23,492 nt of DNA from Gemmatimonadota bacterium (GTDB lineage: Bacteria > GCA-2686955): positions 1 through 23,492 of the forward strand of contig NYZA01000109.1 in the NCBI GenBank assembly GCA_002686955.1, written 5' to 3'. Under the pieces are notes generated by a model. It ran no database searches, was not told the DNA's origin, and worked only from the letters and a program-made list of their open reading frames with translations. The position numbers and the translations under genes were made by a program. Of the stretch, positions 2,202 to 21,470 are shown one piece after another. Every line of letters starts with the position of its first letter. Position 1 is the first letter of the stretch.

Positions 2202-2615
2202 ATGGGCCAACAGCAAATCCTCCTGATCGTTCTCGGCGCCATCATCGTCGGTATCGCGACCGTGGTGGGTATCAACATGTTCAATGAGAGCGCGGCGAAC
2301 GCCAATCTCGACGCGGTCTCGAACGACCTGCTCAATCTTGCATCCAGAGCACAACAGTACTACCGCAAGCCAACCAGTATGGGTGGCGGCGGGAAGTCGT
2401 TCACCGGCTTGACCGCCGATGCGACGGGCATCGCCCAACTCACCTCCAATCCGGTCAACGACAACGGCACGGTTTCCATTTCGGTGGCCGGCAACGACTC
2501 GCTCGTCACGATCCAAGGACTGGGGGTCGAAGACGCCGATGGGGACGGCGATCCGGTTCTGGTCTCTTGTACGGTGACTTCGTCCGGCGCATCGCTCACG
2601 ATTACCGACCGCTAG
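2202..2615 (+). CDS. Leaderless type IV pilin/pseudopilin-like small protein
   Basis: 137 residues. The N-terminus is MGQQQ followed directly by a hydrophobic helix (residues 6-27), then an amphipathic stretch (28-56) ending in QQYYRKP, the layout of a pilin N-terminal helix. There is no positively charged leader, no G^F/M cleavage site and no Glu at mature position 5, so it is not a standard PilD substrate. The C-terminal half is a small domain rich in Ser, Thr, Val and Gly. Residues 111-117 read DADGDGD, resembling a calcium-binding loop such as that of GspG-type major pseudopilins (inference). It is the first gene of the pilus-like cluster, preceded by a sigma-54-like promoter and followed by two GC-rich hairpins before pilC. 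From memory, proteins with this N-terminus recur beside pilC-like genes in FCB-group genomes, usually as hypothetical proteins. I infer it is the fibre subunit or an initiating pseudopilin. Confidence 0.68.
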   Translation: MGQQQILLIVLGAIIVGIATVVGINMFNESAANANLDAVSNDLLNLASRAQQYYRKPTSMGGGGKSFTGLTADATGIAQLTSNPVNDNGTVSISVAGNDSLVTIQGLGVEDADGDGDPVLVSCTVTSSGASLTITDR

Positions 2616-2623
2616 ATCCTTCC

Positions 2624-2645
2624 CCGCGGAGTGAAAGCTCCGCGG
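2624..2645 (+). repeat. GC-rich hairpin after the pilin-like gene (first)
   Basis: CCGCGGAG (2624-2631) and CTCCGCGG (2638-2645) form a perfect 8-bp stem around the loop TGAAAG, starting 9 bases after the pilin stop. No T run follows, so it is not a typical intrinsic terminator. It may instead protect the 3' end of a pilin-only transcript or weaken read-through into pilC. Confidence 0.6.
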
Positions 2646-2649
2646 CGGA

Positions 2650-2675
2650 CCCCCGGGTGCTTCGCGCCCCGGGGG
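2650..2675 (+). repeat. GC-rich hairpin after the pilin-like gene (second)
   Basis: CCCCCGGG (2650-2657) pairs perfectly with CCCGGGGG (2668-2675) around a 10-base loop containing TTCG. It lies 5 bases after the first hairpin and also lacks a T run. Two tandem strong stems between a structural subunit gene and its machine genes fit differential expression of subunit over machine. Confidence 0.6.
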
Positions 2676-2742
2676 CGCTCTGCGTGCCGCCCACAGCACA
2701 TCCAATCACTCGCTTTGCAGCAAGTCTCTGGGACGATCGTCC

Positions 2743-2757
2743 GGCCCATCACGGGCC
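2743..2757 (+). promoter_or_regulatory. Small hairpin abutting the pilC ribosome binding site
   Basis: GGCCC (2743-2747) and GGGCC (2753-2757) make a 5-bp stem with loop ATCAC, directly before the AGG (2758-2760) that serves the ATG at 2770. It could modulate pilC translation, but the stem is short and may be chance. Confidence 0.3.
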
Positions 2758-2769
2758 AGGGTGAGAGAC

Positions 2770-4116
2770 ATGCCCGTTTATCGCTATCAAGGAATCAATC
2801 CGCGCAACCGTCCAGTGCAAGGCGTCATGCACTGTGGCTCCGGTCGCGAGGCGCGCAACAAAGCCGCCGCGATCGCGAGGAGTCGCGCGATTCGTCTCAC
2901 GGGCATCCAGAAGAGGCGCACCTACGTTTATCAGGCCCGCCGCGGTGTCGAAGCTGCGGTTAGGGGCGAGAAGAAGGCATTCGCTCGCCAAGATGTCGAA
3001 GGCGCGCTCAGCCGCGCCGGCTTCCGTGTCATCAAGGTACGACCTCGCATCACCGACGCTTGGATCCGGCCCTCGTTCAAAGATGTCGTGATGTTCATGC
3101 GGCTCTCGGCCGATCTTCTCCGGGAGCAGCTGCCGTACGACGAGATCCTAACGCTTCTCAAGAGTGACATGCCTTCGCGCGCCATGCGCGACGCGATCGA
3201 GGAGATCTATCAGGATCTGAAGGACGGCCGAACAGGTCATGAGGTTTTCGGAAAACATCGCGACATTTTTGGCCAGTTCCCCGCCTATATGCTCGGAATT
3301 GCATCGACCAGCGGAAACATGGTCGAGATATATACCGCGGCGGCGAAGTTTCTCGAGCGCAACGCCGAGTTCAAGAAGATGCTCCGCTCGGCGCTCATCA
3401 TGCCCGCGGCAACCTGCGTCGCCCTGCTTGCGGTCGTCATTTTCTATGTAGGGTACATCTTTCCAAAGACCGCCGAGCTCTTCCTGCGCTTCGACATGGA
3501 TCTGCCGCCCATGACCGCCGGCACGATGGAGCTATCGTACCTCATCCGCGATGAGATCGGCTGGATTCTTGCGTCTTCCGGTCTCTTTATGCTTGCTCTC
3601 TGGCAGGCATTTCGGAGCCCGCGCGTGCGCCTCTTCATCGATCGCTGGATTCTGAAGATACCGATCCTGGGGTCGCTTCTTCAAAAGACATCGATCGAGA
3701 TCTTCTGCCGCGTGTTCTATGCGACCTATAGCGGCTCCGGCGACAACATCGAGGTCATCCGCGTTGCGGCGGAAGCCTGTCAGAATCGCTACATCGAAAA
3801 GAAGATCAAGGAAGAAGTGTTGCCGCGGATGATCCGGAAGGGGTCGGGCTTTGTCGACGCTCTCGACAGAAGCGACGTGTTCACGAAGACCGCGATCTCC
3901 AGGCTACGTTCGGGAGCGGAGACAGGCACCATCAGAGAAACCGCCCTTCAGCTGGCCAACTACTACGAAGCCGACACGACCTATCGACTCCGTGCTCTGG
4001 TCGACTATATACAGATCCTGTTGAGCATCTTCATCGTGCTCGTGATGATCGCCATCACGATCGTCTCGTCCGAAACCGCCATCATCCACCCGAATCCGCC
4101 AGGCACTGTCTCATGA
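2770..4116 (+). CDS. pilC: Type IV pilus inner-membrane platform protein (PilC/GspF family)
   Basis: 448 residues. PilC forms the inner-membrane platform on which the assembly and retraction ATPases act. The N-terminus MPVYRYQGINPRNRPVQGVM is the usual PilC opening (M-x-x-Y/F-x-Y-x-G/A). Two GspF domains follow, at about 105-230 and 305-430. Membrane segments lie at about 208-231, 264-281 and 414-433. Conserved pieces include RLSADLLRE, FLERNAEFKK and SGAETGTI. The ATG at 2770 is preferred to the GTG at 2761 because it starts at the family's N-terminus and has AGG 9 bases upstream. The last codons overlap the start of the next gene (ATGA, 4113-4116), implying translational coupling. The protein looks complete and, from memory, closely resembles PilC-like proteins of FCB-group bacteria. 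Confidence 0.9.
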   Translation: MPVYRYQGINPRNRPVQGVMHCGSGREARNKAAAIARSRAIRLTGIQKRRTYVYQARRGVEAAVRGEKKAFARQDVEGALSRAGFRVIKVRPRITDAWIRPSFKDVVMFMRLSADLLREQLPYDEILTLLKSDMPSRAMRDAIEEIYQDLKDGRTGHEVFGKHRDIFGQFPAYMLGIASTSGNMVEIYTAAAKFLERNAEFKKMLRSALIMPAATCVALLAVVIFYVGYIFPKTAELFLRFDMDLPPMTAGTMELSYLIRDEIGWILASSGLFMLALWQAFRSPRVRLFIDRWILKIPILGSLLQKTSIEIFCRVFYATYSGSGDNIEVIRVAAEACQNRYIEKKIKEEVLPRMIRKGSGFVDALDRSDVFTKTAISRLRSGAETGTIRETALQLANYYEADTTYRLRALVDYIQILLSIFIVLVMIAITIVSSETAIIHPNPPGTVS

Positions 4117-6008
4117 AGCTGCCATTCTCACAGCGGAGCACGCAACCCACTCCAGCGACGCCGGTGGAAGCGGCCGAGCCGCGTCATGATGCCGAACTTG
4201 CCCCTCCTCCGCTCTACAAGACGACAGATCACGACAGGGCACTTCAGATACGCGCGACCGACCGAATCGGCACCCGGCTCGTAAAGAGAGGCTTGATCGA
4301 TCAAGCGACACTAGATCGTGCGTTGCAGATTCAATCAGACGAATCCGCTCCGAGCAGGCGAAAGCTCGGACAGATACTCACCGACGACTGTGGCGTAGAA
4401 GCCGACGCGATTGCGCGAGAAGTCGCCCTGATGTACGGCTTCCCCGAGGTAGACCTCGCCGATAATGCCATCTCCGAACTAGAGCTCTCGGTCGCGACGG
4501 AAATCCTATCGGAGCTCTCCGACGAGCTTCTGGATGAGCTCAGGAATCTCCCCTTGGTGCCGATCGCGGACCGCGAGGGCGGGCGCTCTCCTGTGCGATT
4601 GGTGACCTCCAACCCGACCGATCCCGCAATCGCGAAGCTCGCCAGACAGATGGGTCTCGTCCGATTCGAAATCGTCTTCGCCATCGAATCGGCTGTGCAG
4701 GAATTCTTCTTCCGCGTGGCCCATGACGAGAACCGTTATCTTCGCGATTTGAACAGAGCGCGGGATGAAGTAGAAGAGGTCGAAGAAGATCAGGAAGAAG
4801 AGACGATCGAGATCCACCATTCGGCTTTGACCAATCTGGTGGAAGGCAGCCTTGTGGAGGCAGTTCGAATGGGCGCGAGCGACATCCACATTCTTCCTTC
4901 GGCCGAGGGGGGCGTCGAGATCCGCTTCCGGGTCGACGGTCGTCTGCAGCTATGGATGGAGCAACGTGGGTTCAATCCCGAAGCGTTCGCGGCGGTGATC
5001 AAGGACCGGGCGCGGAATGTCGATCGATTCGAGCGGGAGGCGGCCCAAGATGGCTACATTCAGAGAACCGTAGATGATCATCAGATACGCTTTCGGGTCT
5101 CCATCCTACCGATCGTTGGCGCGGAGTACAAGCGACGAATCGAAAGCGTAGTGATACGGGTTCTAGACGACAGGAAGCTGATTCTGGACCTCGAAAAGGT
5201 CGGCTTCCTTGAGCGTGCGCGACAGGACTTTCGAAAGGCAATACACCGGCCTCAGGGAATCGTGATTCTGACCGGCCCCACCGGCAGTGGCAAGTCCACC
5301 ACTCTGGTCGCGGCCTTGGCCCAGGTGCTAGATCCGACCTTGAATGCGATCACGGTGGAAGATCCCGTCGAGTACATTATCGAAGGCGCACGCCAAGTCA
5401 AGCTGGGTCAAAAGCTCGATTTCGAACAAGCGCTTCGATCTATTCTCAGGCACGACCCGGACATCGTGATGGTCGGGGAAATGCGGGACCGAGTCACGGC
5501 CGACATTGCAATCAAATTGGCAAACACCGGACACCTGACATTCTCCACTCTTCACACCAACGACGCCCCATCCGCGGTGTCGCGTCTCTACAAGTTGGGC
5601 ATCGAGCCCTTTCTTATCGCCTATGCGATAAACATCATCGTTGCGCAGCGACTCATTCGAACTCTCTGCCCGCACTGCCGCGCGATTGACGATGCGATCG
5701 GCAGCGAAATACCCAGAAGAGCAGGGTTCACCGAGACCGAAATCGAAAGGCTCGATTTCTATAGGCCGGTCGGATGCTCGGAGTGTAGCGATGGTTTCAA
5801 GGGTCGTGCGGCAATCCATGAATCGTTGCTCTTCAACAAAGAAATCCGAAGTCTTATCTTGGATTCGCGAGACGAGATAGATGAGCAGGGTATTCGTGAA
5901 ATAGGATCACGCGCCGGGATGTTGTCTCTAAGACAGTCCGGCCTGGAGCGAGTCCGCACGGGCGTAACGACCTGTGAGGAAGTACTCTTCGCCACGACAT
6001 CGGAGTGA
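4113..6008 (+). CDS. pilB: Pilus assembly ATPase (PilB/GspE family)
   Basis: 631 residues; the cytoplasmic hexameric motor that drives subunit addition through PilC. An MshEN/GspE N-terminal domain covers about residues 45-210 (IGTRLVKRGLIDQATLDRAL). An acidic linker at about 220-232 (EEVEEDQEEE) leads into the motor. Walker A GPTGSGKS is at 388-395, the Asp box ITVEDPVEY follows, Walker B DPDIVMVGE is at 448-456, and the His box has GHLTFSTLHTND. The tetracysteine zinc site is C519/C522 and C555/C558. All catalytic signatures are intact, unlike the next gene. The start overlaps the pilC stop by 4 bases. The zinc site and MshEN domain are typical of PilB and GspE; the PilT-like, PilM and PilP neighbours favour a type IV pilus-like role over type II secretion. 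Confidence 0.92.
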   Translation: MKLPFSQRSTQPTPATPVEAAEPRHDAELAPPPLYKTTDHDRALQIRATDRIGTRLVKRGLIDQATLDRALQIQSDESAPSRRKLGQILTDDCGVEADAIAREVALMYGFPEVDLADNAISELELSVATEILSELSDELLDELRNLPLVPIADREGGRSPVRLVTSNPTDPAIAKLARQMGLVRFEIVFAIESAVQEFFFRVAHDENRYLRDLNRARDEVEEVEEDQEEETIEIHHSALTNLVEGSLVEAVRMGASDIHILPSAEGGVEIRFRVDGRLQLWMEQRGFNPEAFAAVIKDRARNVDRFEREAAQDGYIQRTVDDHQIRFRVSILPIVGAEYKRRIESVVIRVLDDRKLILDLEKVGFLERARQDFRKAIHRPQGIVILTGPTGSGKSTTLVAALAQVLDPTLNAITVEDPVEYIIEGARQVKLGQKLDFEQALRSILRHDPDIVMVGEMRDRVTADIAIKLANTGHLTFSTLHTNDAPSAVSRLYKLGIEPFLIAYAINIIVAQRLIRTLCPHCRAIDDAIGSEIPRRAGFTETEIERLDFYRPVGCSECSDGFKGRAAIHESLLFNKEIRSLILDSRDEIDEQGIREIGSRAGMLSLRQSGLERVRTGVTTCEEVLFATTSE

Positions 6009-6010
6009 CA

Positions 6011-7249
6011 ATGAAGGCATGCATAGAAACAACAGCCAGTGCGCCGCCTCTGCCGGGTGCGGAAGAAACCAGAGCGATACCTCGCTTGCTTCAAGGCGTG
6101 GATCGACAGGAACGCGTCGGAGAAATCGTGGCCTCTTTGGAAGAGAGCGCGAGAAACCATCTCGTGGTCTACATGGAGGAACGGATGGAGAAGATGCTCT
6201 CGATCGGCGCCTCTGACATGGATCTCGGCGGGGAAGGGTGCGCGCACCGGATCTGGTACCGTGTCGCAGGAAGAAAGGTGGCAGATATGGAGGGACCGGT
6301 GCTGAGCTTTGAAGATGGGGATCTGTTGATTCACTCGCTACTGACCGAGAAACAGCAGGGCCACCTACTGAGCGAACGAAATGTAGATTTCTCTTACACA
6401 CTCGAACTGGATGGTGTACGACACAGATTGAGAGCCGACGCCTACTTTGATTTGGGACATCTTGCCCTGAATATGCGTTTGATACCTGGCGGCATTCGTC
6501 CGCTGCAGGAGCTGGGGTTCCATTTTAGAGCGATGGAGCGCTTCAACATCCAGCGGGAGAAGCGTGGCTTGGTGTTGGTCACCGGAATCACGGGATCAGG
6601 TAAGAGCTCGACCCTTGATTCGATTGTCGATGCGAACAACCGAATAGCCGACTCCCACGTTACGATCATCGCGTCGCCCATAGAGACGATTCATGAACCT
6701 CGCCGCTGCATCATTCGACATCGTGAGGTCGGTCGCGACGTCCGCTCATTCAAAGAGGGGACGGTTCAAGCGCTCCGTCAAGATCCCGACATCGTCGTTA
6801 TCGGAGAGATGCGTGATCCGGACACCATCATGACCGCGCTCGAAATCACGGATTCTGGCCACAAGGTATTTTCGACACTGCATACGTCGAGCGCCGCGGA
6901 ATCGGTGGACCGAATAATCGGCGAAGTGCCAGCTGTGGAGCAGGAACGCGTGCGGCTACGTCTGGGGGATGTGTTGAGCTGCGTCGTAAGCCAGAAGCTG
7001 GTTCCCGTAATAGGCGGAGGGCGAGTGCTCGCCAAGGAAGTGCTCGTCGTTACATCATCAGTGCGCGCCGCCATCAAGAACAACAACATCGGAGAGGTGT
7101 ACCAGATGATAATGGAGTCACGCGATGATGGCATGATCACGCTGGAGCAGGACCTGCACCGGCTCGTCGGGGTAGGACGGATTCGTCCCGAGGTAGCGAG
7201 AGACTTCGCTAACAACAAGCGCAGAATGGAAGCGTTGCTCAATGGATAG
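6011..7249 (+). CDS. pilT: PilT-like retraction-type ATPase with altered Asp box
   Basis: 412 residues. PilT-family hexamers depolymerise pili. Walker A is GITGSGKS (192-199), Walker B DPDIVVIGE (258-266), and the His box reads GHKVFSTLHT. REVGRD and ALRQDPD are typical of PilT. The Asp box, normally IEDPIE, reads IASPIE (A221, S222): both acidic residues are replaced. It lacks the cysteine zinc site of PilB, as expected for PilT. The N-terminal 60 residues are longer and more variable than in PilT. The start is taken at ATG 6011, with GGAG at 6002-6005 and 5 bases of spacing; a GTG at 6005 overlapping the pilB stop would add two residues. The altered Asp box suggests a motor of changed activity, or a PilU-like accessory (inference). 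Confidence 0.85.
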   Translation: MKACIETTASAPPLPGAEETRAIPRLLQGVDRQERVGEIVASLEESARNHLVVYMEERMEKMLSIGASDMDLGGEGCAHRIWYRVAGRKVADMEGPVLSFEDGDLLIHSLLTEKQQGHLLSERNVDFSYTLELDGVRHRLRADAYFDLGHLALNMRLIPGGIRPLQELGFHFRAMERFNIQREKRGLVLVTGITGSGKSSTLDSIVDANNRIADSHVTIIASPIETIHEPRRCIIRHREVGRDVRSFKEGTVQALRQDPDIVVIGEMRDPDTIMTALEITDSGHKVFSTLHTSSAAESVDRIIGEVPAVEQERVRLRLGDVLSCVVSQKLVPVIGGGRVLAKEVLVVTSSVRAAIKNNNIGEVYQMIMESRDDGMITLEQDLHRLVGVGRIRPEVARDFANNKRRMEALLNG

Positions 7250-7290
7250 CGAAACGATGTTGGACATAGTAGCCACCGGAGCGGGGCGCT

Positions 7291-7295
7291 AGGAG
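7291..7295 (+). promoter_or_regulatory. Ribosome binding site of the PilM-PilN gene
   Basis: AGGAG lies 6 bases before the ATG at 7302. This is the only gene after pilC in the cluster that is not coupled by overlap or near-overlap: a 52-base gap separates it from pilT, so it has its own strong ribosome entry. Confidence 0.7.
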
Positions 7296-7301
7296 AGAAA
7301 G

Positions 7302-9035
7302 ATGGCCCGTCGTCAGAGAGTCGCGGTTGGAATCGCCCTGGAAGGGAACGTACTGCGCATCGTACAATTGGAACGAAGGCGGGATCAAACGATTCATCTG
7401 ACAGCAATTCGACGGGCCAGCCTAATCGGCGATGATGAACTGCAGCCCGAGGGCGCGGAGCACGTGGCTGCGACAGTTGGAGGAAGGGGCGGCTTCGAAT
7501 CCGACACCGGAGCGCCTCCCGTTGGCGACCCCTTTGCCGCGACGGCCGATGCCTCAATCGATTCTCTGAGCTCAGAAGTGGGTGGCTCTCCGCTTGTCGC
7601 CGCGATTCTCGCGGGTGTAGATGGATTCAGCCTCGACAACGTCGCGGTGAACGTGCCGGATACGCATGTGTTCTACCACCACATGGTGTGGGAAGATGGT
7701 GGCAACAAGAAAGAACTGTTGCGGCAAGCGAGGGCTGAGCTTGATTCGGGCAGCGGGGGATTGGCAACAGAGAGTATCGATACAATTCAAGGCAAGGGAG
7801 CAAGCGTGATCTCAGCCGCGCGGGTGGGCGGCTGTCCTGTGGCCGAGGGAGCTCTCGCGGCCGAGGAGTTTCTGGATCGAAAGGTGGGGGTGATCTCGGC
7901 GGCTCCCGATGAGATCGCAGTGGCGGATTTGAGCCGAAGGGTAGCGCCCGCACCGAGCGAGGAGACGATTTCAGCGATCATCCACATTGCGGATGATTCA
8001 ACGCGCGTAATTCTGATGCAGGGAGAGACGGTTCTACGTGTGGCTCCGATCATCCATGAGTCCACGGATTCGCCGGCGCTTGCGCGCACGCTCGTGAGCC
8101 GGGTGGTGCTTGCGCAAGACGAGGCCGGAATTGGGGCGGTCGATCGATTCTTGTTGACCGGCGCGGCGGAGTGGATCGAGGCGTCCGAGTGGTTGCGTTC
8201 GGAGTTCCCGGACGCCGAGGTTCGCTATCTCGACTTGGGTGCGATCCAGGTTGAAGAAGATGCGAACACCGAGGTGATCGACCGGTTCTCGGTGGCTTTG
8301 GGGTTGGCTTGGTCGCTGCTGGAACCTTCGGCGGAAGAGGGCTGGATCGACCTCCTCCCGAAGGAGATCCGCGACCGGAATCTGCGAGGATTGGCGTGGC
8401 ACGGGATGGCCATGATCAGCGCGACCTCGGTATGCGCCGGCTTCCTGCTCTTCGCCGGTTTCGGACTTGTGCGGGCGGAGCGTGCCGCGAGGACCGAACT
8501 GGAATCGGTCGAAACGCAGATAGCCGAAGTGCAAGAACCGGCAATGCGAGCGATGGCCTTGGCGGAAGAAGCAGACGAGATGGAGCGTTCCCTGGATCGT
8601 CTCGCTTCGCTCGCGGGCGCACGTAAGATCTGGAGCGATCTGATCAGCTCCGCGGGAACCCATTTCCGTCAGATTGGGGGCTGCTGGATCACCGTCGTGG
8701 CCTCGACGAAAGATGCCGGAATGGACCTGCACGGCATGACGGTGCGACGACCGCGCCTGGCCGAGCTCGCCAACCGCATGGGCGATGTCGTCTTGCGCAG
8801 TGCGTCGGAGCTGCGCGTCCGCACACGGCCTGTTTATCGCTTCGAGCTGCGCTCCGGTAAGGACGTCGAGTCGGAAATCGAGGCCGCCCACGCCCTCGCC
8901 GCGGCGATGGCGGCGACCCAGGCGGCAGCATCAGCGCCGACTTCGAACCCTGGTGCCGGCCCCATTTCAGCCGCTGAGGAGGCTGGCCCACCGCCGCCAC
9001 CTGGCTCGGGGCCGGACGGGAGTACAGATATATGA
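7302..9035 (+). CDS. PilM-PilN fusion, pilus alignment complex (GspL-like architecture)
   Basis: 577 residues. Residues 1 to about 340 follow the actin-like PilM layout (VAVGIALEGNVLRIVQL at the start, and a late ATPase-fold segment around DRFLLTGAAEWIEA). At about 347 the sequence changes to IDLLPKEIRDRN, the cytoplasmic N-terminal motif of PilN that PilM normally binds in trans. A transmembrane helix follows (about 367-390), then a coiled-coil-like periplasmic stretch (395-440) and a PilN-like ferredoxin fold (to about 525). The tail is Ala/Pro-rich and ends with PPPPPGSG. A PilM-PilN fusion recreates the topology of GspL. The gene overlaps the next by ATGA at 9032-9035. PilM resemblance is moderate and diverged; the PilN join is clearer. 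Confidence 0.78.
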   Translation: MARRQRVAVGIALEGNVLRIVQLERRRDQTIHLTAIRRASLIGDDELQPEGAEHVAATVGGRGGFESDTGAPPVGDPFAATADASIDSLSSEVGGSPLVAAILAGVDGFSLDNVAVNVPDTHVFYHHMVWEDGGNKKELLRQARAELDSGSGGLATESIDTIQGKGASVISAARVGGCPVAEGALAAEEFLDRKVGVISAAPDEIAVADLSRRVAPAPSEETISAIIHIADDSTRVILMQGETVLRVAPIIHESTDSPALARTLVSRVVLAQDEAGIGAVDRFLLTGAAEWIEASEWLRSEFPDAEVRYLDLGAIQVEEDANTEVIDRFSVALGLAWSLLEPSAEEGWIDLLPKEIRDRNLRGLAWHGMAMISATSVCAGFLLFAGFGLVRAERAARTELESVETQIAEVQEPAMRAMALAEEADEMERSLDRLASLAGARKIWSDLISSAGTHFRQIGGCWITVVASTKDAGMDLHGMTVRRPRLAELANRMGDVVLRSASELRVRTRPVYRFELRSGKDVESEIEAAHALAAAMAATQAAASAPTSNPGAGPISAAEEAGPPPPPGSGPDGSTDI

Positions 9036-9907
9036 ACGCCCGTACCCGGAACACCGTAATTGTATCGTTGCTAGGCATCGCAATTCTGGGCGTCGGGACC
9101 TGGGGAGTGCGAGTGTATCTTCCCGGTCGCACGACGGAGGCCCAGCAGAGGCTGCGTCTCAGGCAGGAAACACTCGTTGAGTATCGCGACATGGCTGCAT
9201 CGATCGAAGAGGTTAGCGCTCGCCGCGACGAGACCGAGCAGAGGTGGAAAAGCCGCCCCCATCGCGTCCCCCCCGTTTCGGCCGCACATGATGTTTACGG
9301 TGCGATTACGCACATCGCGGAATCCAAATGCCACGCGCTGCCCTACAGCTACGCATTCGTCAGACGAGAGATAGAGGACGATGCCGAATACGTGGTTCTC
9401 CAGCTACGCGGCGCGGGTCCCTTCATCGATGTCTATCGGTTCGTCTGGGAGCTCGAACATGCCCGAGAGATATACGGAATCGATCGAGTCCGCCTGCGCT
9501 GGCTCGATGCCGGACCGACAGAGGCCGGCTCTCTCGGTTTTGAGCTCGACTTGCGTGCCTACACCGGTGGGGATGGCAAGAAAGCCCAGTTGATCTCAGT
9601 CCGAGCGGAACCGAAATTCCCTTGGCTCAGCTACAACCCCTTCTCACCCCTGGTTCGAGAGACTCTGCCGCCGAATACCGACGACTTGGTCGAGGTGGAG
9701 CGATCGGTGCTGCGGGCCCTTACGCCCACCTTCGCCTTTGTGGAGGACCAGAAGGGCGAATTGGTAACCCTCAAAGAGGGTGAAGCGGTTTACTTGGGCT
9801 ACCTGACCAGGATCAACTCTGCCGCGAATAGCGCCCGATTCACCCTCAACAAGGGCGGCCTGATAGAAGCCATCGATCTCGAGTTGTTGCTGGGAGCGAA
9901 CCAATGA
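9032..9907 (+). CDS. PilO-PilP fusion, pilus alignment complex
   Basis: 291 residues. A short cytoplasmic tail and one transmembrane helix (about 9-31) are followed by a coiled-coil-like region (38-70) and an alpha/beta periplasmic domain (85-175), the PilO plan. After about residue 200 (YNPFSP) comes a beta-rich segment, with VEDQKGELVTLKEGEAVYLGYLTRI inside it shown here only in part as ELVTLKEGEAVYLGYLTRI. This is the homology-region fold of PilP: residue following NPF, then a small beta-barrel with a K-x-G-x-x-V/I-G pattern. PilP normally is a lipoprotein that ties PilN/PilO to the secretin; here it would be tethered through PilO's helix, with no lipobox needed. Overlaps of 4 bases exist at both ends (9032-9035 and 9904-9907 if the upstream secretin ATG is used). 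The PilO call rests on topology and position, the PilP call on local pattern. Confidence 0.68.
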   Translation: MNARTRNTVIVSLLGIAILGVGTWGVRVYLPGRTTEAQQRLRLRQETLVEYRDMAASIEEVSARRDETEQRWKSRPHRVPPVSAAHDVYGAITHIAESKCHALPYSYAFVRREIEDDAEYVVLQLRGAGPFIDVYRFVWELEHAREIYGIDRVRLRWLDAGPTEAGSLGFELDLRAYTGGDGKKAQLISVRAEPKFPWLSYNPFSPLVRETLPPNTDDLVEVERSVLRALTPTFAFVEDQKGELVTLKEGEAVYLGYLTRINSAANSARFTLNKGGLIEAIDLELLLGANQ

Positions 9908-9909
9908 AT

Positions 9910-9913
9910 GGAG
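9910..9913 (+). promoter_or_regulatory. Ribosome binding site deciding the secretin start
   Basis: GGAG is 8 bases before ATG 9922. The in-frame ATG at 9904 overlaps the previous stop and would add six polar residues ahead of a good signal peptide, so 9922 is preferred. Confidence 0.6.
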
Positions 9914-9921
9914 ATCACGAC

Positions 9922-11163
9922 ATGAATATAGCTCGAGCTCAGAGGTTGCCGATCTTTATCCTATGTGCTCTCACGCTAACCGTGGCGGCGCCCTCCGCCC
10001 GGGCTGCCGATGACAGAGAGATCGGGCGACTGGCACGTGGCGCATCCGCTGACGAAATTGTGTCCTTGGGCAGAGACATGCCGATACGACGCGCAATGGA
10101 AGTTCTGAGCGCCATCGCCAAAGAGAGCGAAGGCAAGGTAATCATCGATCTCGACAAACGTGGTGATCCGATTGGGATCGATATCGTGAATGTGCCCTGG
10201 CACAAGGCGTTCGAGATGATCCTGCGGTCGAATGCGCTCTCGTACAAGGAGTTCAAGGACCACTACCTGGTCAGCGCCGTCGATGGCGTGGCCGGAGACG
10301 GTGGACTGGCCGATATGGTCACGGCGGATCAACGCGAAGTCGTGATCTCAGCCACCTTCTTCGAGGCCGACAGAAAGCAGATCAAGGAGATCGGCATCGA
10401 CTGGTCGGCTCTGCTGGGCTCCTCCAGCGACCAGATCGAGTTCCTCGGTGCTACGAACGTAACTGATGATGTTTTCAAGGCCAAGCTGGAGGAAACCGAG
10501 CTCGCGTCCAACTTCTCATTGTCAGGGACTCTCAAGGCATTTGAATCGGAGAATATCGGCGAGATCATCGCCAGCCCGAGGATCACGGTGCTGACGGGGC
10601 GCCGGGGGCGGGTTCAAGTTGGTACCGACTTTTCGATAAAGACGCGCGATTTCGCGGGAAACGTCATCGACAATTTCTTCAGCACCGGAACGATACTCAC
10701 CGTTAGTCCAGAGGTGATCGAGGTCGAAGGGATGTCGTTCATCCATCTGCTGATCGAAGCCGAACGTTCGTCCGCGATTCCCGATGCTGTATCCACTCAG
10801 ATCAAGAAAGACCAGGCATCGACCGAAGTGTTTCTTCTCGATGGAGAGGAGACGGTATTGGCCGGGCTCTTCTCGACCGAAGAGCTGCACGTGCGAAAAG
10901 GCATCCCTTTCTTGAGAAACCTGCCGAGCTGGATGCTGGGGCTTCGATATCTCACAGGCTATGATCGGGTGGAAGTGACGGAGAAGGAGCTCGTGATCGT
11001 CATTGGGGCCGAGCTCGTGCCAAGGCTCGATGAGCGTCTGCAAGATAAAGTCGAGCAGGCCCGCGGGCACAGAGTCAGAGCCGCACGGGATGCCCTGGAT
11101 CAGATTCAATACGATGTTCGAAGCGCGCTCGATGCCAAGGAGGCATCAAACGAGCTGCAATGA
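9922..11163 (+). CDS. pilQ: Short outer-membrane secretin (PilQ/GspD family)
   Basis: 413 residues, about half the length of usual PilQ or GspD. A signal peptide (1 to about 29, ending SARA before ADD) is followed by a single STN/N-domain-like module (about 50-115). The secretin core runs from about 135 (REVVISATFFEADRKQIKEI) to 385. Family marks include SPRITVLTGRRGRVQVG, the STGTILTVSPEV segment, VFLLDGEETVLAGL and KGIPFLRNLP. It would form the gated channel through which the pilus or substrate exits. There are no AMIN domains and no multiple N1 repeats, so the periplasmic vestibule should be short and would depend on the PilP part of the preceding fusion. The last about 30 residues (DKVEQARGHRVRAARDALDQ) are probably helical and could serve as an S-domain-like or pilotin-binding tail. 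Its stop is one base from the convergent stop of the next gene. Confidence 0.85.
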   Translation: MNIARAQRLPIFILCALTLTVAAPSARAADDREIGRLARGASADEIVSLGRDMPIRRAMEVLSAIAKESEGKVIIDLDKRGDPIGIDIVNVPWHKAFEMILRSNALSYKEFKDHYLVSAVDGVAGDGGLADMVTADQREVVISATFFEADRKQIKEIGIDWSALLGSSSDQIEFLGATNVTDDVFKAKLEETELASNFSLSGTLKAFESENIGEIIASPRITVLTGRRGRVQVGTDFSIKTRDFAGNVIDNFFSTGTILTVSPEVIEVEGMSFIHLLIEAERSSAIPDAVSTQIKKDQASTEVFLLDGEETVLAGLFSTEELHVRKGIPFLRNLPSWMLGLRYLTGYDRVEVTEKELVIVIGAELVPRLDERLQDKVEQARGHRVRAARDALDQIQYDVRSALDAKEASNELQ

Positions 11164-17303: not shown

Positions 17304-18347
17304 TCACCCCTCTGATGTCGATGCCATCAAGTCGTCGAGCTCGGCCCTTCTTGCGTCGAAGGCGGGCATGTTTGGAGCTGAGATCCTTCGTCGCATCGTT
17401 TCGTTTTGGCGAAATGGATCGAGGTAGCTTTCTTTGCCGCGGCGAAGGGCGTAGTGGAGGTGTGGATTGGTCGTTCTTCCGGTGTTGCCGGAAAGCGCGA
17501 TAACCGTTCCGGCTTCGATTCTACGTCCCGGTGTCACGACATCGTCGTATACGTTTGAGAGGTGCAAGAAGAGCCCATGTAGACCGGAATCCTCGAACAT
17601 CAGATCGATGCAATACCCATTGGAGCGCACGTTCCAGTTTTTGCGCAACACTTTGGCGGCCATAGGGGCGCGAACCGGCGTGCCGACTGGAACCTTGAAG
17701 TCGATGCCCTTGTGTCCTCTGCCGTCTCTTAGTCGAGCTGTGATTGCTTCGTAATCGTCGATCGGGGATCGCTTCAGTCGCTCGGCCACTTCGACGCCGT
17801 TTTCATCCCAAATACCCGCCCAGCGATCGCCGCTCGCTTGGAATCTGTACCCGCGAAAGGTTGATGCGTGTCGCAAGCTCCGGTACTCGTAGGACAGGAT
17901 TTCGATCGGGTCGCCCGGACCCTGGGTGGGAGTGCGATGGACGCCTTCACCATATCTATATACGACGCGGAAAGGGTCTCCCGGCCTTGGGTCACCACGC
18001 AGGTCGATCTGCCATGCCAGCGATCGTGCCAAATGCGCCGCGGTCAGCTGGGCTTCGGCGGCCGGCAGACGTGAACCCAAGGTCGCGGCGATGGAGCCGT
18101 CCAGACGCCCCGAGAAAATCCTGGGGTCGTCGTTGTCGATCGGCGCAAGCTCGATCGGGGCTTGGGGTTCTTCCGACGGAGCGATCGACGGGTTTCCTGG
18201 CGCGGGCGGGGGCGTCATCGCCGGGAGCACCGCCGCGGGTTCCGTAGTGCGCCGCAGTCCCGCGACGATGAAGTAGACGTTGAGTAGCAACGAAAGGGCG
18301 AGCAGTCCCGGAGTCCAGTTCGCTCGGCGCCGACCTAGCAGGGGCAT
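17304..18347 (-). CDS. M23 family zinc endopeptidase, membrane-anchored, Csd3/ShyA-like
   Basis: 347 residues. It should cut peptide cross-links in peptidoglycan in the periplasm. The protein has an N-terminal anchor (12-31), then a Pro/Ala-rich linker (37-70). Residues about 100-190 match the domain that precedes the catalytic one in Csd3/OapA/ShyA-type proteins (LARSLAWQIDLRGDPRPGDP). The catalytic LytM domain is at about 208-312, with zinc ligands H212 and D216 (GHKGIDF) and H298 in the HLHY motif; H262 and H296 are the other conserved histidines. All four active-site residues are present. ATG 18347 is chosen because AGGA lies 6 bases upstream and the membrane helix follows at once; the frame could start at 18428 but the added residues are Pro/Arg-rich and unsupported. 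It heads the lptFG operon, suggesting coordinated wall opening and LPS delivery. Confidence 0.87.
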   Translation of the reverse strand: MPLLGRRRANWTPGLLALSLLLNVYFIVAGLRRTTEPAAVLPAMTPPPAPGNPSIAPSEEPQAPIELAPIDNDDPRIFSGRLDGSIAATLGSRLPAAEAQLTAAHLARSLAWQIDLRGDPRPGDPFRVVYRYGEGVHRTPTQGPGDPIEILSYEYRSLRHASTFRGYRFQASGDRWAGIWDENGVEVAERLKRSPIDDYEAITARLRDGRGHKGIDFKVPVGTPVRAPMAAKVLRKNWNVRSNGYCIDLMFEDSGLHGLFLHLSNVYDDVVTPGRRIEAGTVIALSGNTGRTTNPHLHYALRRGKESYLDPFRQNETMRRRISAPNMPAFDARRAELDDLMASTSEG

Positions 18348-18734
18348 CAGGGTTCCTTGGGGTGGACTGTCGAACGGCGCCTTGCGCCGGGGGTCTTCCT
18401 GGGTGGAATCTGCGACCGATCCGGGCAATGGTACTGCGCGATCCAGGCGAACCCAAAGGCTTTGACGGTCGACTGACAGATTGGCATGCGACGACCGCCG
18501 TTCATGTCACGCATCCGCTCCGCGTCATCGTCCGGTGGGACGCCAACGCGCGCGACGCCCGTCAGGGTTTGGGCCGTGGCATACTTGTATTCCAAGTTCT
18601 TCTGAGTCTTTGGATCCGCATGGAGGGCCGGTGCCCATTGTGGGCACGGTCCTTGCGATCTAAGCCAAGGCTCGATCACACCCTTTCCACCGGCACCCCG
18701 TGGGCCGCCGGCAACGATCAACCAGAAATGGACC
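18348..18734. promoter_or_regulatory. Divergent control region between the M23-lptFG operon and lon
   Basis: About 390 bases separate two divergent starts, so promoters for both directions should be here. A TTGACG at 18462-18467 is a possible -35 box, but no good -10 follows at 16-18 bases. I see no CIRCE element (TTAGCACTC-N9-GAGTGCTAA) and no clear sigma-32 site. The one strong structure is the hairpin listed separately. Confidence 0.5.
18624..18653 (+). promoter_or_regulatory. Strong hairpin in the lon leader
   Basis: GTGCCCA (18631-18637) and TGGGCAC (18641-18647) pair perfectly around the loop TTG. With G18630 bulged, AGGGCC (18624-18629) continues the stem with GGTCCT (18648-18653), one G-T pair included, giving 13 base pairs. 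It ends 81 bases before the lon ATG. No T run follows on either strand, so a simple terminator is unlikely. It may be an operator palindrome or an RNA element in the lon 5' leader. Confidence 0.45.
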
Positions 18735-21470
18735 ATGGCGGACTCCGGCAAGAAAGCGACCGACGACTTCGATTTCGAAGGTGAGCTCGCGGAAGCTCTG
18801 GCGGATGCGCTGGGCGAGGCGATTCTCGCTCAGCGGTTGATTCTCAGAGAGATCGAGCGGGGCGGCCGATCTCCCGCCCGGGGAGCGTTCACTACCACCG
18901 ATCTATCTCGCCTGACGCACAGGGGGCACACCACCAAACCCGCGAAGGCCGCGGAGCAGTCGGACGAACCCGGCGAGCCAGTGCTCGATGAGGGGGCGGG
19001 TCGCCTATCGGACGATGCGCTGGGCGGTGTCGAGGTAGAGATCGATCGTGATGATCTCGATGAAACCGAAGAGGAGCGCCCGGCCAGCCGCCGCCTCGAG
19101 CTTCCGGTCGTGCCGCTTCGAAACACGATCCTCTTTCCACAGCAGGTCATCCCCTTGGCAGTTGGGCGAGAGCGGTCCGTGCGGGCCGTCGAGGCGGCCA
19201 TGGATGCTCGCCGGCGGTTAATGATCGTCTCGCAAAACGACGCGAAGATCGATCGACCCGGGGCATCCGATCTGTTCCGGTGGGGGACGGTGGCGCACAT
19301 CCTGAAGGTATTCGAGATGCCGGACGGCACGCGCAACATCATTGTGCAGGGAATGGCACGGGCCAATCTTCTCGAGCTGACGCAACTCGACCCCTACACG
19401 ATCGGCGTGCTCGAGACCCATTACGACGACATCGAGGAATCGATCGAGACCGAAGCGATCATCGGCAACCTGCGGTCGATGTTGGAGCAGATCTCCGATC
19501 TCGCGCCATATTTGACGCCTGAACATCAGGCCATGATCTCGTCGGTCTCGAAACCGGGTCATATGGCCGATGCGATAGTATCGGTGCTGAATGTGCCGCT
19601 CAAGGTCAAGCAGGAGATCCTCGAAACCTCCAATGTGGAAGAACGGCTCCAGAAAGCGATGGCCGTGGCGGCCAAGGAGCTGCAAAAGCTCGAAATCGGG
19701 AGCCGCATCCAAAACGAAGTACAGGGTGAGATCTCGAAATCGCAGAGGGACTACTTTCTGCGCGAGCAGATGAAGGCGATTCAGAGAGAGCTGGGCGACG
19801 GGGAAGACGCCTCGGACGAGAACAAGGAGCTGCGCGCGCGCATCCGAAAAAGCAAGATGCCCGCTGACGTCAAAAAGGCGGTCAACAAGGAGTTGGACCG
19901 GTTAGGGAGGATTCACCCCGGATCACCTGAGTACACGGTTTCAAGAACTTATCTTGATGTGATGCTGGATTTGCCGTGGAAGAAGCACTCGCGCGACCGT
20001 CTCGATATCGCCCTGGCACACGAGATCCTCGATGGTGATCACCACGGTCTAGAAAAGGTGAAGAAGCGCATTCTCGAGTTCTTGGCGGTTCGGAAACTCA
20101 AGAAAGACATGCGCGGTCCAATCCTCTGCTTCGTCGGTCCTCCCGGAGTTGGAAAAACGTCGCTGGGCAGATCGATCGCCAGTGCTCTGAAGCGGAAGTT
20201 TTTTAGAATGTCACTCGGAGGGTTGCGCGACGAAGCTGAGATTCGAGGGCATCGCCGAACCTATATTGGCGCCATGCCCGGCAGGATCATCCAGGGCATA
20301 AAGCGAACCGAGACAGCAAATCCCGTGTTCATGCTCGATGAGATCGACAAACTGGGGTCAGATTTTCGAGGTGACCCCTCATCGGCTCTCTTGGAAGTGC
20401 TCGATCCAGAGCAGAACCACTCTTTCACTGATCACTATCTCGACCAGCCCTTCGACCTCTCCAAGGTGCTCTTCATCGCGACCGCGAATGTGCTCGATAC
20501 TGTTCCGCTGGCGCTGCGGGATCGCATGGAGATCATCGAGGTTCCGGGCTATACACTCATCGACAAAATGAAGATCGCTCAGCAGTTCCTGGTGCGCAAA
20601 CAGATCGATGAGAACGGGCTCTCCAAAGGCCAGATCGAGTTCGCCGACACCGCGCTTCGAGCCATCATCGAGAATCATACCCGAGAGGCCGGGGTTCGAA
20701 ACCTCGAGCGCAGGATCGGTGCGGTCTGTCGCGGTGTCGCCAGAGGAATAGCCGAGGGCACGACAGAACACGAGACAATCGAAGAAGATGATCTTGCTAC
20801 ATACCTGGGGCAGCCACGCTATTATCCGGAGCTCTCCGAGAGATTCGAACGCCCCGGAATCGCGACAGGTTTGGCTTGGACCCCCACGGGAGGAGACCTG
20901 CTCTTCATCGAGAGCACGTGGATGCCCGGCACTGGAAAGCTGATACTCTCAGGCAGGCTGGGGGAGGTGATGAAGGAATCCGCCGGTGCCGCGCTCTCTT
21001 ACATTCGGAGCGGGGCCGATGATCTGGGTGTCCCTTCCGATCTGCACGAGAAGATGGATGTGCACGTTCATGTGCCCGCGGGAGCGATTCCGAAAGATGG
21101 GCCGTCGGCCGGTGTAGCGATTTTCTCGTCACTAATGTCTCTCGTAACGCAACGCTCGATTCGGCACGATACGGCGATGACCGGTGAGATAACGTTGCGA
21201 GGCGTCGTTCTCCCTGTTGGCGGCATCAAGGAAAAGCTACTGGCCGCCCACCGAGGGGGAACAAAAAGAGTGATCCTGCCGGAGAAGAACCGACGTGATC
21301 TCGACGAGGTTCCGGAAGATGTGAGGGCAGACCTCGATCTTCACTTCGTCACGAGCCTGGAAGATGCCCTCCCGTTGGTGTTGCGGGAGCAGGTGGTCAA
21401 GAAAGCGTCGAGCGCGAGCAAGCCGAAGACGACCACGGCGAAAAAGAGAGCGGTGGCGGCCACCCGGTAG
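18735..21470 (+). CDS. lon: ATP-dependent Lon protease with acidic N-terminal extension
   Basis: 911 residues, against about 784 in E. coli. Lon degrades damaged and regulatory proteins in the cytoplasm. The substrate-binding LON domain starts at about 121 (LELPVVPLRNTILFPQ). The AAA+ module has Walker A GPPGVGKT (468-475) and Walker B MLDEID (533-538). The protease domain has the Ser-Lys dyad at S791 (KDGPSAG) and K832 (GGIKEKLLAAHRGG). Residues 1-120 are an added segment: a helical Ala/Glu/Asp-rich start, a Thr/Arg-rich middle, then a strongly acidic patch (100-115). The C-terminal tail (about 890-911) is Lys/Ala/Thr-rich. No good ribosome binding site precedes ATG 18735, but no alternative ATG or GTG lies between it and the LON domain. 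The next gene follows 11 bases later. Confidence 0.95.
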   Translation: MADSGKKATDDFDFEGELAEALADALGEAILAQRLILREIERGGRSPARGAFTTTDLSRLTHRGHTTKPAKAAEQSDEPGEPVLDEGAGRLSDDALGGVEVEIDRDDLDETEEERPASRRLELPVVPLRNTILFPQQVIPLAVGRERSVRAVEAAMDARRRLMIVSQNDAKIDRPGASDLFRWGTVAHILKVFEMPDGTRNIIVQGMARANLLELTQLDPYTIGVLETHYDDIEESIETEAIIGNLRSMLEQISDLAPYLTPEHQAMISSVSKPGHMADAIVSVLNVPLKVKQEILETSNVEERLQKAMAVAAKELQKLEIGSRIQNEVQGEISKSQRDYFLREQMKAIQRELGDGEDASDENKELRARIRKSKMPADVKKAVNKELDRLGRIHPGSPEYTVSRTYLDVMLDLPWKKHSRDRLDIALAHEILDGDHHGLEKVKKRILEFLAVRKLKKDMRGPILCFVGPPGVGKTSLGRSIASALKRKFFRMSLGGLRDEAEIRGHRRTYIGAMPGRIIQGIKRTETANPVFMLDEIDKLGSDFRGDPSSALLEVLDPEQNHSFTDHYLDQPFDLSKVLFIATANVLDTVPLALRDRMEIIEVPGYTLIDKMKIAQQFLVRKQIDENGLSKGQIEFADTALRAIIENHTREAGVRNLERRIGAVCRGVARGIAEGTTEHETIEEDDLATYLGQPRYYPELSERFERPGIATGLAWTPTGGDLLFIESTWMPGTGKLILSGRLGEVMKESAGAALSYIRSGADDLGVPSDLHEKMDVHVHVPAGAIPKDGPSAGVAIFSSLMSLVTQRSIRHDTAMTGEITLRGVVLPVGGIKEKLLAAHRGGTKRVILPEKNRRDLDEVPEDVRADLDLHFVTSLEDALPLVLREQVVKKASSASKPKTTTAKKRAVAATR

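Follow-up and report, generated by a model that had tools for sequence, protein, structure and literature searches.

A putative type IVa-like pilus operon with fused alignment proteins and apparently leaderless pilins in a Gemmatimonadota bacterium and its relatives

The DNA analysed here (the window, 23,492 nucleotides) is contig NYZA01000109.1, or C109, of the 4.28 Mb draft genome of a Gemmatimonadota bacterium (GCA_002686955.1, 84.5% complete), and it carries a complete operon of seven open reading frames (ORFs) on the forward strand between positions 2202 and 11163. A preliminary description of the sequence had recognised here a nearly complete type IV pilus-like machine on seven genes; all the ORFs were found where they had been placed, and Pfam and NCBIfam profiles confirmed the identities of PilC, PilB, PilT and the secretin. 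The first gene (2202..2615) encodes the predicted leaderless major pilin of 137 amino acids, beginning MGQQQILLIVLGAIIVGIATVVGINMF. It is followed by the inner-membrane platform protein PilC (2761..4116; T2SSF, PF00482, E 2.5e-28), the start of which may be either the GTG at 2761 or the ATG at 2770, by the extension ATPase PilB (4113..6008; PF00437, E 7.8e-102) and by the retraction ATPase PilT (6005..7249; TIGR01420, E 7.7e-91), whose score of 305 bits is just short of the cut-off of 319. The last three genes code for a PilM-PilN fusion of 577 amino acids (PilMN, 7302..9035), a PilO-PilP fusion of 291 amino acids (PilOP, 9032..9907) and a short PilQ-like secretin (9904..11163; PF00263, E 5e-21). 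As described earlier, most of the gene junctions are 4-base overlaps: four of them are, while gaps of 145 nt and 52 nt separate pilin from PilC and PilT from PilMN, respectively. The assignment of the host to the Fibrobacteres-Chlorobi-Bacteroidetes (FCB) type was also borne out, and the nearest relative among the genomes scanned belongs to the same family as the window's genome and is labelled as a Gemmatimonadetes metagenome-assembled genome.

Relatives of the operon were gathered by a scan with a PilT alignment, which resulted in 80 named loci, whereas a single-sequence PilMN scan of the genome contigs returned no relatives, probably because these sequences are too divergent. The loci come from many phyla that have been little studied, namely the Balneolota/Rhodothermota, Ignavibacteria, KSB1, Calditrichota, Latescibacterota, Neomarinimicrobiota, LCP-89, Coatesbacteria and others, and the operon is also present in cultured Fodinibius, Gracilimonas, Balneola and Roseithermus. 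In nearly all of the contigs that are long enough, the order is pilin-PilC-PilB-(minor pilins)-PilT-PilMN-PilOP-secretin; the gene-order survey proposed at the outset thus indicates conservation across FCB-type phyla. Identity of PilT in the alignment is 51-71% across phyla. Around the window's genome, the pilin family was detected in 12 of the 386 genomes sampled, mostly from other families of the domain. A weak PilT-like match downstream in some Ignavibacteria loci was rejected, the one tested (L033) being UvrA.

The start of the major pilin is the most unusual feature of the operon, and one that the preliminary description did not contain. The protein begins with MGQQQ(L/I)LL, and M1, G2 and Q5 are invariant in the family alignment (A5). 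Upstream of the assigned start, 66 of 67 homologues have no in-frame ATG, GTG or TTG, and in 53 of the 67 the frame is closed by a stop within five codons, so that a leader of ordinary length could not be encoded there. A Shine-Dalgarno-like motif precedes the start in 52 of the 67 genes; in the window the sequence GGAG stands before the ATG. Prepilin leaders have 6-26 residues, are hydrophilic and end in Gly, or else in Ala (PMC4471445, PMC10191384), and no such class III signal peptide is present in these pilins. In type IV pilins a hydrophobic helix of about 20 residues stands at the N-terminus, before a periplasmic domain. Both the major and the minor pilins have a hydrophobic N-terminal stretch, and the domain that follows it would lie on the periplasmic side. 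In 66 of the 67 pilins position 2 is Gly, and likewise in 66 of them position 5 (with Met as 1) is Gln; the Glu5 that is usual, though not universal, in major pilins is missing. We conjecture that Gln5 may stand in for Glu5, with the position shifting by one if the Met is removed.

Three families of minor pilins, V (about 165 amino acids), W (about 185) and X (about 355), have the order and sizes of GspI-J-K, and in many relatives V-W-X are in the operon together with the machine. In the window's genome they lie together on another contig, C86, likewise a finding beyond the preliminary description. Nearly all of the 112 minor pilin homologues start at or beside the transmembrane helix. A GspK-like tip subunit is expected to have no acidic residue near position 5 (PMC10191384), and none occurs in the first nine positions of X in 39 of 39 sequences. 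A Pfam search of the minor pilins gave nothing useful but DUF4900 on X. The question of what is assembled, which had been left unknown, can thus be narrowed to a leaderless major pilin with three leaderless GspI-J-K-like minor pilins.

Since prepilins are processed by a dedicated peptidase in the type IV filament superfamily, the genomes carrying the operon were searched for this enzyme. Peptidase_A24 was present in 18 of 53 genomes and undetectable in 35, three of the latter being complete genomes (L048, L088, L098). Cultured strains are found among the negatives, too, such as Gracilimonas amylolytica, Fodinibius halophilus and Roseithermus sacchariphilus. In these 35 genomes a full-length PilD profile, which gave 3e-108 and 1e-14 on positive controls, found nothing credible (best E 0.18), and no match to the archaeal-type PepC_II profile exceeded the cut-off. 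The peptidase occurred in none of the 20 genomes with exactly two T2SSE ATPases, where the operon's PilB and PilT are the only such motors, versus 18 of the 33 others (Fisher p 1.7e-5), and in all 15 genomes in which a classical GspE/PilB reached at least 440 bits (p 1.3e-10, with the cut picked after the list had been seen). Canonical N_methyl pilins were found in 16 of 18 peptidase-positive and 2 of 35 negative genomes (p 1.4e-9); all these p-values ignore the relatedness of the genomes and so overstate independence. The presence of the peptidase tracks other machines. The window's genome has such a machine on contig C154 (L019), a type II-like operon of the classical kind that encodes canonical prepilins, the leader ending in GSRERG followed by FTLIELL. 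Ordinary prepilin leaders are found in other peptidase-positive genomes, too; thus the method is able to see leaders where they are present. In the same genome a second secretion ATPase stands by an RcpA-like secretin on contig C208 (L020, 4195-7145), probably a Tad pilus locus.

The nearly invariable Gly2 could be read in another way, as the residue before the cut of a very short leader, Met-Gly or similar, removed by an unrelated or highly divergent peptidase. Gly precedes the cut in canonical prepilins as well, and some of the operon-associated genes are uncharacterised. Most W and V minor pilins, however, lack Gly at residue 2, no conserved membrane-peptidase-like gene was seen by eye in the operons inspected, and the three peptidase profiles yielded nothing credible, which makes such an enzyme improbable.

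In order to establish the type of the machine, the fused proteins and the secretin were compared with known components, a check already suggested in the preliminary description. In the alignment-based model of PilMN (pLDDT 79.6) residues 3-342 (7308..8327) match PilM of the PilM:PilN complex 2ych with Z 25.9 (rmsd 2.9 over 281 residues), with FtsA (Z 21.7) and the GspL-type EpsL (Z 15.8) ranking lower. The remainder contains the PilN part (8331..8855), which matches Myxococcus xanthus PilN by profile (profile positions 344-489, E 1.9e-12) and which in the model comprises a helix with the transmembrane segment (366-458) and a ferredoxin-like domain (461-518). The N-terminal motif of PilN is the element that docks on PilM, and the NLLP-like motif IDLLP sits at the equivalent spot, residues 349-353, directly after the PilM domain. 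The model of PilOP (pLDDT 86.8) has the PilO ferredoxin-like domain at residues 79-179 (9266..9568; 2rjz, Z 12.7, rmsd 2.3, 97 residues), then the PilP domain at 211-291 (9662..9904; 2lc4, Z 9.3), of which 223-286 correspond equally to the homology region (HR) beta domain of GspC (3oss, Z 9.0, rmsd 1.0, 57 residues). The family profile of the secretin matches PilQ in two blocks, N0 (268-380) and the secretin domain (440-706), and skips 381-439, the location of N1; its best NCBIfam match is TIGR02515 PilQ at 86 bits, far below cut-off. The PilM/N, PilO/P and PilQ identities were thus upheld, including the single N-domain of the secretin.

These components point to a type IVa-like pilus. PilB, PilC, PilT, the PilM/N/O/P domains in two chains and a PilQ-type secretin are all present, and the motors, the platform, the alignment-complex folds and the secretin are common with the type IVa pili of Myxococcus and Pseudomonas. 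It differs from these in the fusion of M with N and of O with P, in a secretin without N1, in pilins without leader or Glu5 and in a prepilin peptidase undetectable in most of the host genomes checked. Because of the missing signal peptide and the missing peptidase, we regard the machine as a variant and not as a plain member of the type IVa pili.

The alternative that it is a protein secretion system, a type II-like pseudopilus driving export through its GspL/GspC/GspI-J-K-like parts, has several likenesses in its favour. GspL is also a PilM-like and a PilN-like part in one chain, although the likeness of PilMN to it goes no further than that; the PilP domain is close to the GspC HR, the minor pilins are in I-J-K-like order, and a Bacteroidetes relative, the "putative T2SS" of Cytophaga hutchinsonii, has been linked to cellulose utilisation (PMC5553014). 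Type II secretion systems, however, have separate GspM and GspC, secreted substrates and no PilT, while here O and P are in one chain, the pilins are leaderless and PilT is encoded in the window as well as in related loci (in the latter partly by construction, PilT being the search query). The PilM fold is complete and not the reduced one of GspL, and PilB and PilQ profiles outscore those of GspE and GspD (426 bits for TIGR02538 PilB versus 384 for GspE). The secretion system is therefore unlikely, and the earlier view of the fused proteins as intermediate between type IV pili and type II secretion is not borne out as worded; according to the sequence comparisons, the machine is a type IVa-like pilus equipped with PilT rather than a form halfway to type II secretion. 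The Cytophaga system, a divergent type IV filament machine from a neighbouring phylum with PilM/N/O-like parts, was ruled out as the same system since its cluster carries a Peptidase_A24 gene, and the paper mentions no PilT (PMC5553014).

Two further systems deserve comparison. The pilus-like cluster Amuc_1098-1102 of Akkermansia muciniphila contains the PilM-like Amuc_1101 and the PilO-like Amuc_1100, the latter having the PilO fold in common with PilOP. The NCBIfam profile of Amuc_1101 (NF045709) matches 18 of 31 members and spans the M-N junction in the window, but at 26.9 bits against a cut-off of 650, with about 160 residues matched, the window's protein belongs to another family. In the genome of Melioribacter roseus pilT, pilQ, pilB and pilC were reported while pilA and pilD were not found, and the set was deemed probably incomplete (PMC3534657). 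To judge from the gene list of that paper, this is the pattern expected if the present system is read with canonical models.

Taking these results together, we propose, with a probability of about 0.77, that the product of the operon is a retractable type IVa-like pilus, a machine of FCB lineages in which the pilins are made in their mature form from the start. The ribosome would start where the mature pilin begins, so that the position of the start codon replaces leader cleavage, and Sec would insert the pilin helix with the N-terminus on the cytoplasmic side. If translation starts at the mature N-terminus and insertion is N-in, leader cleavage and N-methylation by PilD would not be needed; the initiator Met may either stay in place or be cleaved off by methionine aminopeptidase. 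The V-W-X minor pilins would prime the tip, as GspI-J-K do, with X resembling GspK. PilB and PilC would then add major pilin below the tip, and extension is possibly tuned by c-di-GMP, since an MshE-like c-di-GMP-binding motif is present at the N-terminus of PilB (NF053729, 30.6 bits, below the cut-off of 38). PilT would remove the major pilin, resulting in retraction, while the filament would leave through the secretin, which PilMN and PilOP would tether to the inner membrane. Such a machine would probably serve surface attachment, twitching or DNA uptake. Somewhat less firmly, but still as the probable case, these loci would represent a class of type IV filaments that is widespread in bacteria, has no prepilin peptidase and translates its pilins from the mature first residue, and leader cleavage and N-methylation would then not be universal needs for assembly or retraction.

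Several observations weigh against this reading, among them the late choice of the 440-bit cut and the relatedness of the genomes noted above. The major pilin shows weak homology to canonical pilins: the PDB profile of Geobacter PilA-N matched with E 0.0063, hhalign gave E 7e-4 in one comparison with a probability of 27%, and the best Pfam match, ComP_DUS, was at 1.8e-4. Minor pilin W is even more distant from GspJ-like proteins (E 0.026, probability 2%), and profile-profile comparison of the major pilin with W found no significant link. The identity of the pilin leans partly on its position in the operon and on the scarcity of canonical pilins elsewhere. Start sites were assigned from ORF geometry and Shine-Dalgarno motifs; since the upstream frame of the window's own pilin gene is open for 58 codons, the case against a leader there rests on the Shine-Dalgarno position and on the homologues. 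Finally, a PilD-like protein is encoded in the genome of the window, together with another machine that would make use of it, and in this genome the pilins may be processed.

The weak sequence link would also fit an accessory membrane protein, the true major pilin being encoded elsewhere with a normal leader. This we consider distinctly unlikely: in 33 of the 35 peptidase-negative genomes not a single N_methyl prepilin match was obtained, while the MGQQQ family was found in 37 of 37 genomes searched and in most operons lies just upstream of PilC.

The fused architecture itself seems old and stable, since every one of the 74 complete PilMN and the 66 complete PilOP homologues is encoded by one uninterrupted ORF; among these relatives no split-gene versions were found, and the earlier description of PilM-PilN and PilO-PilP as one chain each is thereby confirmed. 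That the fusions and the short secretin arose from frameshifts, sequencing or assembly errors, for which the draft state of the genome could be invoked, is ruled out for practical purposes by the identical architecture in these independent assemblies, complete genomes included. It is plausible that the fusions fix a 1:1 stoichiometry of M to N and of O to P.

Type IV pilins are defined in reviews by a leader that can be cleaved off, and the prepilin peptidase is counted there among the core, ancestral components (PMC4471445, PMC10191384); measured against this definition the operon would represent a new, apparently peptidase-independent variant. In the open-access literature we found no bacterial report of leaderless pilins or of peptidase-independent pili, subscription papers lying outside the search. 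A machine of this kind across several phyla allows the old question of the purpose of cleavage and N-methylation to be tested directly, and it may explain why the pilus gene set in one such phylum was called incomplete. It also exposes a gap in tools that rely on the signal peptide to find pilins, and with two fused proteins replacing four it could make pilus assembly simpler to reconstitute.

A number of variants were observed among the loci. In the Balneolota and some others a cyclic nucleotide-binding protein is encoded between PilB and PilT (PF00027, E 6e-12; L024, 9186-9686), which suggests that extension and retraction are under nucleotide control. LysM or TPR domains stand at the C-terminus of some PilMN fusions (L071, 11190-13733; L015, 5078-7921) and could possibly replace separate peptidoglycan anchors. 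Long secretins of the Balneolota (about 600-660 amino acids) bear a C-terminal extension, which in the single case tested (L026, 13784-15751) terminates in a SPOR domain. PilB of Roseithermus sacchariphilus has 1127 amino acids with a long N-terminal extension (L088, 3366-6746), and in L014 the secretin gene (18138-19331) is upstream of the pilin rather than 3' of PilOP.

Promoter and terminator scans gave scores no better than those of shuffled sequences. The intergenic stretch after the pilin gene (2616..2760) contains two strong G+C-rich hairpins (minimum free energy -71.4 kcal/mol, z -3.3), a possible mRNA stabiliser or attenuator; standing right after the pilin stop codon, the pair could raise the level of pilin mRNA above that of the downstream machine genes.

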